Assembly: GCA_013388635.1 (NCBI GenBank)
Contig: JACAEX010000036.1
Location: 1 to 43,169, forward strand
DNA length: 43,169 nucleotides
Direction: 5' to 3'
DNA from: Syntrophaceae bacterium
Lineage (GTDB): Bacteria > Desulfobacterota > BSN033 > UBA1163
A model generated the notes under the pieces. The model was not told where the DNA came from, made no database searches, and saw only the letters and a list, made by a program, of their open reading frames with translations. Position 1 is the stretch's first letter; each line of letters starts with the position of its first letter. The translations under genes were made by a program, and so were the position numbers. Below are positions 15,685 to 21,276 of this stretch, one piece after another.

Positions 15685-15978
15685 ATGAACTTAAAGCTTT
15701 ATGTGGGCAATCTTCCAGTCGGGGCATCCGAGGACGATTTGAAAAGACTCTTTTCGGAAGTGGGTGAGGTCCGGTCTGCCAAGGTCGTGATCGATCCCTA
15801 CACGGGACGCTCGAGAGGGTTTGGCTTCGTGGAGATGGGGTCAAGGCCGGAGGTGGAGAAGGCACTCTCTCAGCTCAATGGGAAGATCCTTATCGATCGA
15901 ACCCTGGTCGTCAACGAAGCCAGACCTCAGAAGAAGAGGGGCGGCGAGTTCAGGGGAAGAAGGGAGAGAAATCGATAG
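15685..15978 (+). CDS. RRM-domain RNA-binding protein
   Basis: A 97-residue protein made of one RNA recognition motif plus a short basic tail (KKRGGEFRGRRERNR). RNP2 (LYVGNLP, residues 5-11) and RNP1 (RGFGFVEM, from residue 44) are both intact, with the aromatic residues that stack on RNA bases. A strong GGAGGAGG site precedes the ATG. Bacterial single-RRM proteins of this kind are best known in cyanobacteria, where some are cold-induced. The next gene is rpsU, recalling the cyanobacterial rbp-rpsU pairs. The targets are not known from sequence. Confidence 0.92.
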   Translation: MNLKLYVGNLPVGASEDDLKRLFSEVGEVRSAKVVIDPYTGRSRGFGFVEMGSRPEVEKALSQLNGKILIDRTLVVNEARPQKKRGGEFRGRRERNR

Positions 15979-16256: not shown

Positions 16257-17945
16257 CTAAGAGTTCTTCCCGGGCACGTTAATGGCCAGCCACGGCTCTC
16301 CCTCCTCGGTCTGAAGGAAGCCTTTTCTGGACAGAACCCCCATCGCCTCTGATGAAAAAGCTCCCACGTCTTTAAAATCGAGGATCACCCTTTCGATCCT
16401 TGAGGAGAGACTTTTCTTAAGCCTCTTCACCAGCTCCTTGGCCCCCTCCCGATCGATCGATCCCTCCAGCCTGACGACCAGTGTCTTCAGCCGCTCGTTG
16501 TATACAGAGTAGAGTTTGAGGGTGTCGGCTGCCTTCTGTTCGATCTGAAGCCTCTTCTCTGCTATCTTCACCCCTACTGCCTGGATCAGATCCCTTGTGT
16601 TCTGGAGGGGAATCGTATCGTTCATCCTCTGGAGCATCTTGGAAAGACCTGGGACCTGGCCCTCCGGTGTTTTCTCGGCAATGCTTCGATAGGCCAGGTT
16701 GGATAGAAGTCGGGTGAAGAACCGTTGCTGGGGATGAAAGACCCTCCTCAAAATGGAGCGCCAGGAATAACCCTCTTTACAGACCCAATTGAATCCCTGC
16801 TGAAGCGTCTCTTCTGTCATTAACTTCGGCCTGAAGACGACCGTCGCCCCATTGTATTTGGACCAATCCTTATGCAGAAGTCTTCCCTCTGACTCCATCC
16901 TTTGAAATAACGGGGTTCCGGGCAAGGGGGTGAGGATGAAGAAACTGGGCAGTTCGATCCGATTCTTTTCGCAGAATCGGAGGGTCCTCTCGAAAACTCC
17001 CTCATCATCGTGATCCAATCCGAAGATGAACCCTGCCAGGATCATGATGTCGTGGTCGTGGAGGGATCTCATCGCTTCCTCATATCGATCGACCTGATTA
17101 AATGACTTATGGACCTCTTTCAGGTTTTCTGAGGAGAGGGATTCCACCCCTACGAAAAGAGAGACGCATCCGCTTTCTGCAGCCAGTCTCAGAAGTTCAG
17201 GGTTTCGCGTGAGGGTCAGACTGGCCTGGCTGGCCCATTTCTTCTTGAGGGGTTTTAAACGGGTGAAGAGCTCTTTCGCATAGGGGGGGTTGCCAGCGAT
17301 GTTGTCATCCACAAACACGATGAACTCCCCGTCCAGACGCTCAACCTCTTCGATCACCTCCTCAACTGGCCTACAGCGATAAGTCTTTCCAAAAAAATGG
17401 GTCACATGACAGAAATCACACTGATGAGGACAGCCCCGGGTCGTCTGGACACAGTTGACTGTCATGTAGGCATCTTTGCAAAGGAGATCGATTCTGGGGG
17501 GAGGAATCCCTTTCATTGTGCAATAGGCATCGGCCTTATAAAAGGGTTTCAGGCGTCCCTTCTCAAGATCTTCGATCAACCCCTTCCAGATATTCTCCGC
17601 CTCACCGATAACGACCGCGTCCACATGTGCCTTCGCCTCCGAGGGAAGACTTGAGGCATGGGGTCCTCCCATGACGACCGGGACGCCCCTCTGCCGAAAT
17701 CTCCGAGCGATTTCATAAGCCCTTGGGGCATGCATCACCATCCCCGTCAACCCGACCAGATCCACATCCTCTTCAAAGTCGATCGGCTCCACATTCTCAT
17801 CGGTGATCTTCACGTCGATATGGGAAGGGGTGAGCGCAGCCAGGGTGGTCAAGGTGAGACGGGCGAACCAGATCGTCTTGATCACCTTTGGAGAATGGGC
17901 GATGAATGGATCGTCATAGGCGGGATCGATCAGCCGGATCTTCAG
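16257..17945 (-). CDS. B12-binding-type radical SAM protein with a C-terminal STAS-like domain
   Basis: A 562-residue protein. A cobalamin-binding-like domain (about 5-130, with VDLVGLTGMVMHAPRAYEIA and VVMGGPHASSLPSEA) is followed by a radical SAM core with cluster cysteines in TTRGCPHQCDFC (C172, C176, C179). Later core elements are FVDDNIAGNP, FVGVESLSSENLKEV and PLPGTPLFQRM. The last 75 or so residues (486-562; LVVRLEGSIDREGAKELVKR, then ERVILDFKDVGAFSSEAMGV) look like a STAS domain, the fold of anti-sigma-factor antagonists. The substrate is unknown. The longer reading frame begins with a TTG at 18017, but that codon is part of a near-consensus promoter. The only NTG codon between promoter and homology is CTG at 17943-17945, preceded by AGGGGG, so an unusual CTG start is proposed. 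Confidence 0.82.
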   Translation of the reverse strand: MKIRLIDPAYDDPFIAHSPKVIKTIWFARLTLTTLAALTPSHIDVKITDENVEPIDFEEDVDLVGLTGMVMHAPRAYEIARRFRQRGVPVVMGGPHASSLPSEAKAHVDAVVIGEAENIWKGLIEDLEKGRLKPFYKADAYCTMKGIPPPRIDLLCKDAYMTVNCVQTTRGCPHQCDFCHVTHFFGKTYRCRPVEEVIEEVERLDGEFIVFVDDNIAGNPPYAKELFTRLKPLKKKWASQASLTLTRNPELLRLAAESGCVSLFVGVESLSSENLKEVHKSFNQVDRYEEAMRSLHDHDIMILAGFIFGLDHDDEGVFERTLRFCEKNRIELPSFFILTPLPGTPLFQRMESEGRLLHKDWSKYNGATVVFRPKLMTEETLQQGFNWVCKEGYSWRSILRRVFHPQQRFFTRLLSNLAYRSIAEKTPEGQVPGLSKMLQRMNDTIPLQNTRDLIQAVGVKIAEKRLQIEQKAADTLKLYSVYNERLKTLVVRLEGSIDREGAKELVKRLKKSLSSRIERVILDFKDVGAFSSEAMGVLSRKGFLQTEEGEPWLAINVPGKNS

Positions 17946-17988
17946 ATTGGAACCCCCTGAGAAGCTAACAAAGACTCGATGTGAAGGA

Positions 17989-18017
17989 ACTATAACGAAT
18001 CCAGCCCGGGGTGTCAA
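17989..18017 (-). promoter_or_regulatory. Near-consensus sigma70 promoter for the radical SAM-STAS gene
   Basis: On the minus strand TTGACA (18012-18017), 17-base spacer, TATAGT (17989-17994). The match is nearly perfect. It shows that this gene has its own transcript, separate from the ParA unit that ends at 18041, and that translation starts downstream of about 17982. Confidence 0.75.
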
Positions 18018-18040: not shown

Positions 18041-18844
18041 TTATTCAGCAGTTTCTGACAGGTTGTAATACTCCTTTTTGCAGGAATCTCTCAGGAACGT
18101 GAGAGACTCTCTCACTTCGTCAAAGGATTTCTTCAGGGTTTCGCACCTTCTCTCCAGCTCGATGTTCTGGGCCAGGACCTCCTCCAGTTTTGACTGAAGG
18201 CTCTGGTTCTCCTCATAGAAATGGGAGGCCTCCCTCTCTTTCAGTCTTCCTTTGATCTGAAGGATCTCTGCCTGCTGCAGTTGGAGACTCAGATCCTGAA
18301 CTCGGCTCAGTGCCTCATCCCTCTCCCGGGTCGTCTGAAGCAAGGCCTCATTCGCCTCCCTCAGCTCTTGCCGGAGCTTCTCGATCTTCTCCAAGGCGTC
18401 TTCATTCTCCTCCTTGAGGTAAGCCGCCTCGGCCTGGGTCTCCTTAACTCTCTGCAATTCCTTTCTCAGGTCTTCCAGCTGCCTGCGCAGTTCCTGATTA
18501 TCCTGGCTCATCTGATGGATGGTCTTCTGTTGAGACTGGAGGTCGATCTCAAGCGCCCTCTTTGCCCTGGCCGAGGCGAGGAGCTGACCGTGAAGATCCT
18601 CGATCAACCTCAGCACATCAACGGTCTGTTCGTTCTCTAACCTCTTCGGCTCGAAGGTCTCCACCTTCTCGGAATGGCCCTCAAAGGCCTTAACCTCCCC
18701 GACTCCTTCAGGCTGTTCCTCTCGCAGGGCCTGGACCTCACCCGCCGGATCCGGAGACACCGATTCTTCCAGCTTCTTCATCTTCGGCATCTTTTCGGCA
18801 ATGCTCTTCTCGAATCCGTCGACCGTCAACATTCTTGTCCTCAT
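18041..18844 (-). CDS. Coiled-coil protein, last gene of the ParA unit
   Basis: A 267-residue soluble protein without signal peptide. After a basic N-terminus (MRTRMLTVDGFEKSIAEKMP) and an acidic linker, residues about 75-250 are a nearly continuous Gln/Glu/Leu/Arg-rich coiled coil. A segment at about 85-105 (LHGQLLASARAKRALEIDL) resembles one in the 110-residue neighbour (LYSELRSSLTVRSALEFDL). AAAGGAGG precedes the ATG. No known family is recognised. A basic N-terminus followed by a coiled coil is the layout of ParA-activating adaptor proteins such as PomX and McdB-type partners, so a ParA partner role is inferred from position and form only. Confidence 0.75.
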   Translation of the reverse strand: MRTRMLTVDGFEKSIAEKMPKMKKLEESVSPDPAGEVQALREEQPEGVGEVKAFEGHSEKVETFEPKRLENEQTVDVLRLIEDLHGQLLASARAKRALEIDLQSQQKTIHQMSQDNQELRRQLEDLRKELQRVKETQAEAAYLKEENEDALEKIEKLRQELREANEALLQTTRERDEALSRVQDLSLQLQQAEILQIKGRLKEREASHFYEENQSLQSKLEEVLAQNIELERRCETLKKSFDEVRESLTFLRDSCKKEYYNLSETAE

Positions 18845-18904
18845 CCCTTTGCCTCCTTTAAAGGCTCAGCCCACACTGCTCCCCCTGATAAAAAAGAGAG
18901 GGGG

Positions 18905-19237
18905 TCATTTGATCCGCTCCTTCATATACTCCTCCATCACCCTCAACATCTCGATGATCTTCTCCACCTCCACCTTGATCCGGTTCACCTCTTCCAGAAT
19001 CCGATTGGCCTTCTTAAGATCGAATTCCAGAGCAGAGCGGACCGTTAAAGAGGAACGAAGCTCAGAATAGAGCGTATGGATACGGTCGGCGATCTCGTCT
19101 CGCTTTGCCTCCTCCCCGAATCTCTTGACTGGGGAGATCACTTTGGGGTCGGTCACATCCCAGGGTTTTTCGACTGTCTCCCGGTTTACCGTGTTTGGAA
19201 ACTTCTGTGCCACGTTATTGGTGAACTCATCAGACAC
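18905..19237 (-). CDS. Small coiled-coil protein next to ParA
   Basis: A 110-residue protein. The proposed start is GTG at 19235-19237 behind AAAGGAG; an in-frame ATG lies ten codons upstream but has no such site. It overlaps the parA stop by eight bases, so translation is probably coupled. The N-terminal 40 residues are polar. From about residue 45 to the end is a coiled coil (RDEIADRIHTLYSELRSSL and IKVEVEKIIEMLRVMEEYM). It shares the motif L-x6-L(S)-x-x-R-x-ALE-x-DL with the downstream coiled-coil protein. No known family is recognised. Confidence 0.72.
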   Translation of the reverse strand: MSDEFTNNVAQKFPNTVNRETVEKPWDVTDPKVISPVKRFGEEAKRDEIADRIHTLYSELRSSLTVRSALEFDLKKANRILEEVNRIKVEVEKIIEMLRVMEEYMKERIK

Positions 19238-20237
19238 GCTCGGCTCCTTTCGGTCCAAAGATTTCATCGATCAGACGGTCGATATCCGTCGCTCCTTTTG
19301 ACGACGGCGCAAAGAGAAAGATCGGGGTTCCCTGGCTCGTGGCCTCCGCGATCTTTGTATCCTGACGGATCATGGTTTCGAGGAGGTACTTCTCATAGTG
19401 GGTCTCCAATGCCTTCTTCGAACGTCTGCAGATGCGATGGGAATCGTTGTATCGGTTCAGGAAGATGAAGATATTCTCAAAGACAAAAGAGAAATCTTCT
19501 TCGATCGTGGAGAGGGTTTCGAAAAGGATCTTGAGACCATGATAGGAGAGAAAGTCGGCCAGGACAGGGATGAGCAGGTCGTTCGATGCAAGGATGGCAT
19601 TGAGGTTCAACAACCCGATGCTCGGAGAGGCATCCATGACGATCAATTCGTAATTTTTCTCCAAGGTGGCGAGGAGCTTCTTCAATCGAAACTCCCTTGA
19701 GTTCATCGAAAAGAGCGAGAGCTCAACAGGCGAAAGGTTCAGATTGGAAGGGATGACATCCAGGGTGGGAAGATCCGTCTTGATGATGATCTTCTCGACA
19801 TCCTCCTTCTCGATCAATGCATTGAACAGGGTCTTCGGATATTGCTGATTGTTGAGGCCCAGGCACTGGGTCAGATGTCCCTGGGGATCCAGATCGATCA
19901 GGAGCGTCCGGATTCCCTTCTGGGCCAGGCGAAAACCGTAGGATGCGGAGAGGGTGCTCTTTCCGGTTCCACCCTTGAAGTTGAGGAAGAGTTGTTTCCG
20001 GATCGATTTGATGGGAGAAGGGATCCCGAGGAGGCTCCGGTACTTGATCACATCCTCCGGTTTGTAGTAGCGCCCCTCATGCCCATTCCGTTTGGCGGGG
20101 GGAAGGATCCCCTGAGCCTCCTTTTCAATAAGCTCCTGTTTCGAAATCCCGAGGAGCTTTGCAAAGCTCATCGGCGTATAGACCGTATCTCCGAGAATCT
20201 GGGCCCTCTGAATCAACGGCAATGATCGGGTCGTCAT
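19230..20237 (-). CDS. ParA/MinD-type ATPase with an N-terminal MerR-like helix-turn-helix
   Basis: A 335-residue protein. Residues 20-70 (YTPMSFAKLLGISKQELIEK, then GRYYKPEDVIKYRSLLGIP) form a MerR-like HTH as in plasmid type Ia ParA/SopA proteins. The ATPase core follows with deviant Walker A KGGTGKS (88-94), Walker A' LIDLDPQGHLTQCLG, and the Walker B aspartate in LIVMDASPSIGLLNLNAIL. ATP-bound dimers would bind nucleoid DNA and release on stimulation by a partner. ATG at 20235-20237 is chosen for its AAGGAGAGG site. No ParB gene is adjacent. The neighbours are a HEAT-repeat protein and two coiled-coil proteins, so a role in placing something other than a plasmid is more likely. Confidence 0.87.
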   Translation of the reverse strand: MTTRSLPLIQRAQILGDTVYTPMSFAKLLGISKQELIEKEAQGILPPAKRNGHEGRYYKPEDVIKYRSLLGIPSPIKSIRKQLFLNFKGGTGKSTLSASYGFRLAQKGIRTLLIDLDPQGHLTQCLGLNNQQYPKTLFNALIEKEDVEKIIIKTDLPTLDVIPSNLNLSPVELSLFSMNSREFRLKKLLATLEKNYELIVMDASPSIGLLNLNAILASNDLLIPVLADFLSYHGLKILFETLSTIEEDFSFVFENIFIFLNRYNDSHRICRRSKKALETHYEKYLLETMIRQDTKIAEATSQGTPIFLFAPSSKGATDIDRLIDEIFGPKGAERV

Positions 20238-20250
20238 AGACGACCTCTCC

Positions 20251-21000
20251 TTAAGTTCGGTGCCCAAGGGGTGCCCTCCTTGTTCTGAACGGTCTCAGCA
20301 TCGTCTTCTCCAGCCTACGATTGGCCCATTGCCGGACCTCCAAATCTGAATCGGTCGCCGCCTCCACCAAACGATCTTCGCTTCCATCGGGATAGAGCAC
20401 AGTGAGAGAAACGAGGGCCGCTTTTCTTACCATCGGATCCTGATCTTTTGACATCGCCATGAGAATCGGAAAGGCGCCTTCTGGCTGAGCCCATCCCAAG
20501 AGCGTGGCCACTTTTCTTCTCACCCAGGCCGATTCGTCGCTCAGGAACTGGAGGAGGAGGTTCAATTCGATCCTTTGTCCCAGCTGGAACATTCCTCTAA
20601 GGGCAGCGAGCCTCACCCCGGGATCCCTGTCCTTCAGGCATCTCTTCAATAAAGGAGAGAGGCCTGGATTTTGAAATTTGATCAAGGAGGTGATCGCCCT
20701 CGCCCTGACCGCAGGCTCAGGGTCGGCCAACATCCCCTGGAGATGAGATGTGGCAACGGAGGCCTCAAACTTTTCCAGATACCGGATCGCTAAAATCCTG
20801 ACGCTCGGATCGGGATGTCTCAGATCCTTTTTCGCCTGCGTCAGAGCGGCCTCATAAGAGAGCATCTCTGTCGTAAGGGCTTCATCCGACGGAGCGGCGC
20901 TCAAAACCTCTCGGGATTTCTGGGAAGGAGGGGAATCTTCAATTGTTGGCTTTTCAGACTCTGCCGATTTCAAGTAAACCAGTCGGAACCGATCTCCCAT
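20251..21000 (-). CDS. HEAT-repeat protein of the ParA unit
   Basis: A 249-residue soluble protein. After a low-complexity N-terminus of about 45 residues come roughly five to six HEAT-type helical repeats of about 31 residues, recognisable by D-P-x-VR-x-x-A: HPDPSVRILAIRYLEKF, DPEPAVRARAITSLIKF, DRDPGVRLAALRGMFQL, DESAWVRRKVATLLGWA, DQDPMVRKAALVSL and DSDLEVRQWANRRLEK. Such arrays are scaffolds for protein contacts. It precedes the ParA gene by 13 bases. HEAT repeats are also present in PomY of the Myxococcus PomXYZ division-site system, whose partner PomZ is a ParA ATPase; this is an analogy of parts, not demonstrated homology. Confidence 0.85.
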   Translation of the reverse strand: MGDRFRLVYLKSAESEKPTIEDSPPSQKSREVLSAAPSDEALTTEMLSYEAALTQAKKDLRHPDPSVRILAIRYLEKFEASVATSHLQGMLADPEPAVRARAITSLIKFQNPGLSPLLKRCLKDRDPGVRLAALRGMFQLGQRIELNLLLQFLSDESAWVRRKVATLLGWAQPEGAFPILMAMSKDQDPMVRKAALVSLTVLYPDGSEDRLVEAATDSDLEVRQWANRRLEKTMLRPFRTRRAPLGHRT

Positions 21001-21035
21001 CCCTCGCCTTTGGACTCTAAGTGCCTCAAGAGAAA

Positions 21036-21218
21036 TTATCTTTTCATACTCTCTGCGAAATCAAACTTCAGCTGTTCGGAGTATTTCTCGAGAAGCATGT
21101 CCAAGGCCTCTCTCACATAGACCGACTGGGGGACCTTGGTCTTCTCAGATAATCTCTTCAAAGCACCGAGCTGTTCATCGTGGATATAGATTGTTCGGGC
21201 AACCTTTTTCTGTCCCAA
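21036..21218 (-). CDS. Ribbon-helix-helix DNA-binding protein
   Basis: A 60-residue protein with an RHH fold: the beta strand KVARTIYIHDEQLGALKRLS, then SEKTKVPQSVYVREALDML as the two helices. RHH proteins bind DNA as dimers through the strand and commonly repress their own promoter. The start is TTG at 21216-21218 with GGAGAG upstream. It is the first gene of the five-gene ParA unit and lies 35 bases before the HEAT gene. It may be an autorepressor or a centromere-binding partner of ParA, as with ParG-type RHH proteins. No toxin gene is adjacent, so it is not an evident antitoxin. Confidence 0.82.
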   Translation of the reverse strand: MGQKKVARTIYIHDEQLGALKRLSEKTKVPQSVYVREALDMLLEKYSEQLKFDFAESMKR

Positions 21219-21245
21219 TAGGTCTCTCTCCGTGTAAATTGAAAC

Positions 21246-21276
21246 ACAATATAATACAATACATTCGCCCTGTCAA
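21246..21276 (-). promoter_or_regulatory. Promoter of the ParA unit with overlapping direct repeats
   Basis: On the minus strand TTGACA (21271-21276), 17-base spacer, TATATT (21248-21253). ACAATA occurs twice on the plus strand at 21246-21251 and 21256-21261, spaced 10 bp, across the -10 region. This is the typical arrangement of RHH operators, so autoregulation by the 60-residue protein is likely. Confidence 0.6.

Follow-up and report, generated by a model that had tools for sequence, protein, structure and literature searches.

A probable Pom-like ParA positioning operon in a Syntrophaceae bacterium of the Desulfobacterota

The closest described counterpart of the operon considered here is the PomXYZ system of Myxococcus xanthus, a division-site positioning system in which the ParA-type ATPase PomZ is partnered by the coiled-coil adaptor PomX, whose C-terminal coiled-coil domain polymerises, and the HEAT-repeat protein PomY. 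PomXYZ is conserved in myxobacteria, with the three proteins co-occurring in the Cystobacterineae (PMC13170346, PMC7993993), and PomZ has diverged far less than its partners (PMC7993993). The activating peptide of M. xanthus PomX comprises 22 residues, MKKAFEQNVSRAKPRLRLGALT, and two of them, K13 and R15, are essential (PMC7993993). A modelling study from 2026 placed 21 PomZ residues near PomX or PomY (20 contacts plus A147) and described these residues as conserved in PomZ orthologues and not in ParA or MinD (PMC13170346). Literature searches combining PomX or PomZ with Geobacter or Deltaproteobacteria yielded no account of a Pom homologue beyond the myxobacteria, with most subscription papers lying outside the search; a search for orphan ParA proteins with HEAT repeats found nothing relevant. 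The present analysis concerns five genes in a 43,169-nt stretch of contig JACAEX010000036.1 (the whole stretch is called the window), whose host, a Syntrophaceae bacterium, belongs to a different phylum from Myxococcus. They encode a ribbon-helix-helix (RHH) protein, a HEAT-repeat protein, a ParA-type ATPase with an N-terminal helix-turn-helix (HTH) domain, a short coiled-coil protein (CCs) and a long one (CCl), and they probably specify a Pom-like, nucleoid-riding positioning system with an RHH autoregulator.

These five genes had been predicted in this order behind a single promoter, and domain matches agree with that description. All occupy the minus strand, closely spaced from 21218 down to 18041, with 35 bp between the RHH and HEAT genes, an overlap or a 13-bp gap between the HEAT and ParA genes (the exact ParA start, at 20267 or 20237, is uncertain), an overlap of 8 bp between ParA and CCs, and 60 bp between CCs and CCl. 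A scan with the ATPase yielded 12 close loci, mostly in metagenome-assembled genomes labelled Syntrophaceae or Deltaproteobacteria, with ATPases 81-84% identical. The five genes stand in order in 11 of these loci, and the remaining one lacks only CCs; a 13th relative, G008 (L095), keeps all five, so that the set is complete in 12 of 13 relatives from the host's own family (labelled f1). Among relatives, the HEAT protein and CCl are only about 46-59% identical, against 71-78% for CCs and about 81-85% for ParA, a gradient like that between PomZ and its partners. The association of the five genes is far beyond chance, since 13 relatives hold them together despite the divergence of HEAT and CCl. 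When 17 genomes of the family were counted, the ATPase and CCl were each found in 14 and CCs in 13.

Conservation beyond the family was surveyed with a full-length profile of the HTH-bearing ATPase in an even sample of 395 Desulfobacterota genomes; further families are labelled f7, f11 and f34. Matches came from one f7 genome (E 5e-159) and from each of the 12 f34 genomes drawn (E 1e-127 to 1e-139); the next matches fall to 1e-53 and cover the ATPase part only. Units in f7 and f34 have the order HEAT-HTH-ParA-CCl; in most f34 genomes a small coiled coil comes next, one that does not carry the peptide discussed below. An RHH gene was not seen in these units. The HEAT protein, the ATPase and CCl can thus be regarded as the unit, and the RHH protein and the peptide-bearing CCs as additions of the host's own family. 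A CCs profile run against the same 395 genomes recovered the own family only, plus two weak matches to parts of the coil. The original prediction had looked to conservation of the gene order without ParB in Desulfobacterota for support, and had named non-conservation of the HEAT and coiled-coil neighbours as grounds for refuting it. The order is kept in the host's family, the core unit recurs in f7 and f34, and the neighbours travel with the ATPase. In M. xanthus the genes run pomY (0634), pomZ (0635), pomX (0636), the same HEAT-ParA-coiled coil order as in f1, f7 and f34.

The link to PomXYZ rests chiefly on the N-termini of the two adaptors. Both CCs and CCl have coiled-coil-type sequence and share the start D-x-F-x-x-x-V-A-x-K-(F/M)-P. 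The PomX peptide MKKAFEQNVSRAKPRLRLGALT aligns without gaps from Met1 with f34 CCl (MKDGFDKSVAEKMPRMQKKR) and with CCs of the window (MSDEFTNNVAQKFPNTVNRE). Positions common to PomX and the adaptors are F5, N/S8, V9, A/S10 and P14, with K/R15 in CCl; the f34 adaptors are identical to PomX at M1, K2, F5, V9, P14 and R15 and similar at positions 6, 8, 10 and 16. Compared with shuffled PomX peptides, the match has p values of 5e-6 for the f34 and f7 group, 1e-5 for f1 CCl and 1e-3 for f1 CCs. None of 538 background N-termini reached the PomX score of the f34 and f7 group, and one of 539 reached that of each f1 group; given its very high score, this single match probably belongs to the adaptor family itself and escaped the filter. 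In the true register the score is 22, and shifts of one to three residues bring it to −8 to −21. After the peptide, f34 has RPWNVDP and CCs has EKPWDV, a likeness which suggests that CCs and CCl may be a split pair. A coiled-coil profile compared with the PDB returned lamins and a synthetic helix only, which are uninformative coil matches.

The ATPase can be compared with PomZ at defined positions. PomZ residues G62, K66, D90 and K268 correspond to G89, K93, D117 and K295 in the window, at a constant offset of +27, and the Walker A lysine (K93), hydrolysis aspartate (D117) and DNA-binding lysine (K295) are present at PomZ spacing in all aligned f1, f7 and f34 ATPases. At the 21 positions from the modelling study, 10-12 residues are identical to PomZ in the f1, f7 and f34 ATPases and several more are conservative, against 2-8 in Soj-type and plasmid HTH-ParA controls; the highest control, with 8 of 21, is an f11 ParA without an HTH. 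The best PDB matches of the modelled ATPase (Foldseek) were Soj and ParA. Ahead of the ParA fold, AlphaFold2 predicts a confident helical N-terminal domain (block predicted local distance difference test, pLDDT, 79-95 over residues 11-70), and this HTH-like domain is conserved in f1, f7 and f34. The published numbering of PomZ places about 60 residues ahead of Walker A, about 50 more than in Soj, and for this reason PomZ may carry an HTH-like domain too. A tree of HTH-ParAs with Soj consisted of long branches, with a deep order that is unusable.

The PomX-type peptide and the partly PomZ-type contact residues make the resemblance to Pom stronger than originally claimed. Pom-like, in a phylum new to such systems, is thus a better description than the unrelated "possible new system" of the original prediction. 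Of the differences from Pom listed there, the HTH-bearing ATPase is unproven. The operon does differ from PomXYZ in its RHH gene and in a second, short, peptide-bearing adaptor. A Pom-like mechanism is likely, and its steps, including binding, ATPase stimulation and movement, may be pictured as follows. The ATP-bound dimer of the ATPase would bind the nucleoid non-specifically. CCs and CCl, probably with the HEAT protein, would form a cluster, which would be brought onto the nucleoid by the ATPase. The adaptor N-terminal peptides, which have the layout of the PomX peptide, would dock at the ATPase dimer interface and stimulate ATP hydrolysis, and the resulting turnover would move the cluster to midnucleoid. 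The RHH protein, for its part, would bind the tandem repeat over its own promoter and so autoregulate the operon. By analogy with PomXYZ, the division site (the FtsZ ring) has close to an even chance of being the cargo, and is more likely than any other single cargo.

Several observations weigh against this interpretation. The comparison drew on only the published PomX 1-22 peptide, the PomZ residue positions and the PomY architecture. Where PomX has its essential K13, the adaptors have M or F, and a K or R stands one position earlier, at 12. In CCl, K/R12 and K/R15 are found in nearly all sequences together with M13, so R15 is matched conservatively, whereas CCs has K12, F13 and, where R15 is essential in PomX, an N. 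The peptide of f1 CCl does not start at Met1 but 6-7 residues further in. PomY has an N-terminal coiled coil, seven HEAT repeats and a C-terminal disordered region with alpha5 and a winged HTH. The HEAT protein has 249 residues and, in its AlphaFold2 model (mean pLDDT 83), a disordered linker followed by paired helices that form about six HEAT repeats, with Foldseek matches to HEAT and alphaRep proteins; neither the PomY coiled coil nor its C-terminal activating region was found in its sequence or model. It is therefore at most a reduced PomY, and membership in PomXYZ proper is not claimed. Its N-terminus, FRLxYLKS, is positively charged, with conserved R and K, and nearly invariant in the family; it may serve as an additional peptide for docking or activation. 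No division gene adjoins the unit. The unit is also missing from 3 of the 17 own-family genomes and so is not indispensable. FtsZ is present in all seven carrier genomes tested, and no MinC or MinE was found in the host genome or in any carrier relative searched; Min genes are, however, also missing from 20 of the 22 genomes tested from other families of the phylum, outside the class. The absence of Min was thus rejected as evidence for a division role, which it only permits.

The best-surviving alternative keeps the same peptide-stimulated, nucleoid-riding ParA mechanism and assigns it another cargo, such as a protein cluster, an organelle-like body or a repair or replication complex. The peptide and the contact residues bear on mechanism and not on cargo, and the parts of PomY that act on PomZ and FtsZ are those missing from the HEAT protein. 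The surroundings of the unit, which differ between families, also speak for such a cargo: f7 and f11 units lie directly behind ruvAB genes (ruvCAB-like in f7), and f34 units lie beside a gene read as priA and PrsK/PrsR-like two-component genes (names assigned by eye). Dispensability in the host's own family likewise counts in favour of this reading. Against this, the HEAT-ParA-coiled-coil order and the peptide match the division-site system specifically, and the unit has no cargo gene as a conserved neighbour in every family. The McdA/McdB carboxysome system and other ParA-adaptor cargo systems resemble the operon in having an orphan ParA of related fold encoded with an adaptor, but no carboxysome or other cargo genes were noticed in the loci read, and the adaptor peptide here is PomX-like. 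On balance, another cargo for the same machinery is possible, though somewhat unlikely. In L086, L091 and L092, the f34 units sit between the divergent gene read as priA and the genes resembling the PEP-CTERM regulators PrsK and PrsR.

A second alternative is DNA partition, in which the HTH-ParA would bind a specific site and repress the operon while a coiled coil replaces ParB, on a plasmid, an integrated element or a secondary chromosomal locus. Plasmid partition ATPases (P1 ParA, SopA, RepABC RepA) likewise carry an HTH at the N-terminus of a ParA ATPase. Plasmid HTH-ParAs found by search align along most of the length with 27-35% identity, and some ParB-less partition modules include an RHH gene. 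In all four plasmid neighbourhoods checked, however, ParB or RepB directly follows the HTH-ParA, whereas no ParB was seen beside the unit in any locus read and no parS-like site was found in the window at up to 3 mismatches. No gene for replication or mobility was noticed when the loci were read. The distribution of the unit goes with families, its partners are a HEAT protein and coiled coils, and in plasmid ParAs the contact residues do not resemble those of PomZ. The chromosomal Soj/ParB system shares the ParA fold, but Soj lacks the HTH and the host genome has a separate gidB-soj-parB locus elsewhere. DNA partition is accordingly improbable. An origin of the ATPase from plasmids or phages was also considered and rejected: protein searches gave distant ParAs only (34% for the best plasmid match; 31-34% for the best among the phage matches listed, over the ATPase part only). 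No plasmid or phage gene and no ParB was found with the unit in the loci read, and no parS in the window, two further points on which the prediction held. The closest plasmid HTH-ParA found (34%) is from a Candidatus Manganitrophus plasmid (L104:4022-5984), with ParB directly behind it.

It is highly improbable that the genes are chance neighbours or unrelated regulatory pairs, with the ATPase acting by itself or together with the chromosomal ParB. RHH was not seen in other families and CCs is absent from one relative, but HEAT and CCl accompany the ATPase across three families with differing surroundings, and an AAP-type peptide is common to both coiled coils.

Two f11 loci (L080:1489-2637 and L077:1098-2247) have ruvA-ruvB-like genes, a ParA without an HTH and then a 114-residue coiled coil. 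This coiled coil has the N-terminus MSDIYETNAPVRFPSPKEQP, which is similar to the start of CCs (p 2e-4 to 1e-3), and the pair may be a simpler, minimal relative of the same kind of system. More speculatively, and with somewhat less than even confidence, a family of peptide-stimulated ParAs may extend across Desulfobacterota in graded forms, of which PomXYZ would be one elaborate branch, placing the division site in Min-less bacteria. The forms meant, put forward with the same reserve as part of that joint proposal, are ParA with a short coiled coil behind ruvAB, HEAT-ParA-coiled coil, and RHH-HEAT-ParA-two coiled coils. On the operon's own evidence, division-site-type positioning machines may exist well outside myxobacteria, their supposed sole home. 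A Pom-like unit in several Desulfobacterota families, with its compact HEAT partner and second adaptor, would make midcell-finding by a nucleoid-riding cluster older and wider than that group, and Min-less anaerobes would have a candidate mechanism for finding midcell. Natural variants would also be available in which the positioning core (ATPase and peptide adaptor) is separated from those parts of PomY that recruit FtsZ.

The features of the operon are collected in the table. The start of CCs was placed at GTG 19237 because the upstream extension carries stops in relatives.

Table. Features of the operon, with positions numbered from the first letter of the window
Feature	Position	Strand	Basis
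Promoter-like site TTGACA-17-TATATT before the RHH gene	21248..21276	-	11/12 consensus positions, sigma-70-like
Tandem 10-bp repeat TATTGTATTA/TATTGTGTTT over the -10 box, probable RHH operator	21242..21261	-	Conservation and uniqueness; putative binding
RHH protein, 60 aa, probable operon autoregulator	21036..21218	-	Pfam RHH_3, E 2.8e-17
HEAT-repeat protein, 249 aa	20251..21000	-	HEAT_2, E 2.3e-28
ParA-type ATPase with N-terminal HTH, PomZ-like	19230..20267 (alternative start ATG 20237)	-	AAA_31, E 1.9e-45
MerR/HTH_17-like domain of the ATPase	20040..20168	-	Weak Pfam match, HTH_17 E 0.0013 (also MerR_1)
CCs, 110 aa, GTG start, PomX-type N-terminal peptide SDEFTNNVAQKFPNT and PWDV motif	18905..19237	-	Family alignment, peptide comparison
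PomX-NPEP-like peptide of CCs, residues 1-18	19184..19237	-	Peptide comparison
CCl, 267 aa, PomX-like adaptor	18041..18844	-	Coiled-coil-type sequence, peptide comparison
PomX-NPEP-like peptide of CCl, TVDGFEKSIAEKMPKMKKLE	18767..18826	-	Peptide comparison

As predicted, a promoter-like site was found ahead of the RHH gene, in a region that 14 loci have in common. The tandem repeat over the -10 box is kept in these loci, with a 5-bp insertion in 2 of the 14, and occurs as a single copy in the 3.4 Mb genome at up to 3 mismatches, with none in shuffled sequences. The RHH protein is 71-88% identical among relatives, and no close paralogue was found in the host genome. On the simplest reading it is probably a local autoregulator, which would act by binding the repeat and repressing transcription. 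Identification of the protein as CdbA was rejected, as no solved RHH protein matched at E<1.

Upstream of the operon lies an ABC-transporter-like gene cluster in the opposite orientation (read by eye). Downstream, on the same strand, is a radical-SAM-like gene (16257-18017) of B12 type with an apparent C-terminal STAS-like stretch (domains read by eye), which also adjoins the operon in L011 and L016. A small gene for an RRM-type RNA-binding protein (15685-15978) lies near the downstream end of the operon in most of the own-family relatives read.

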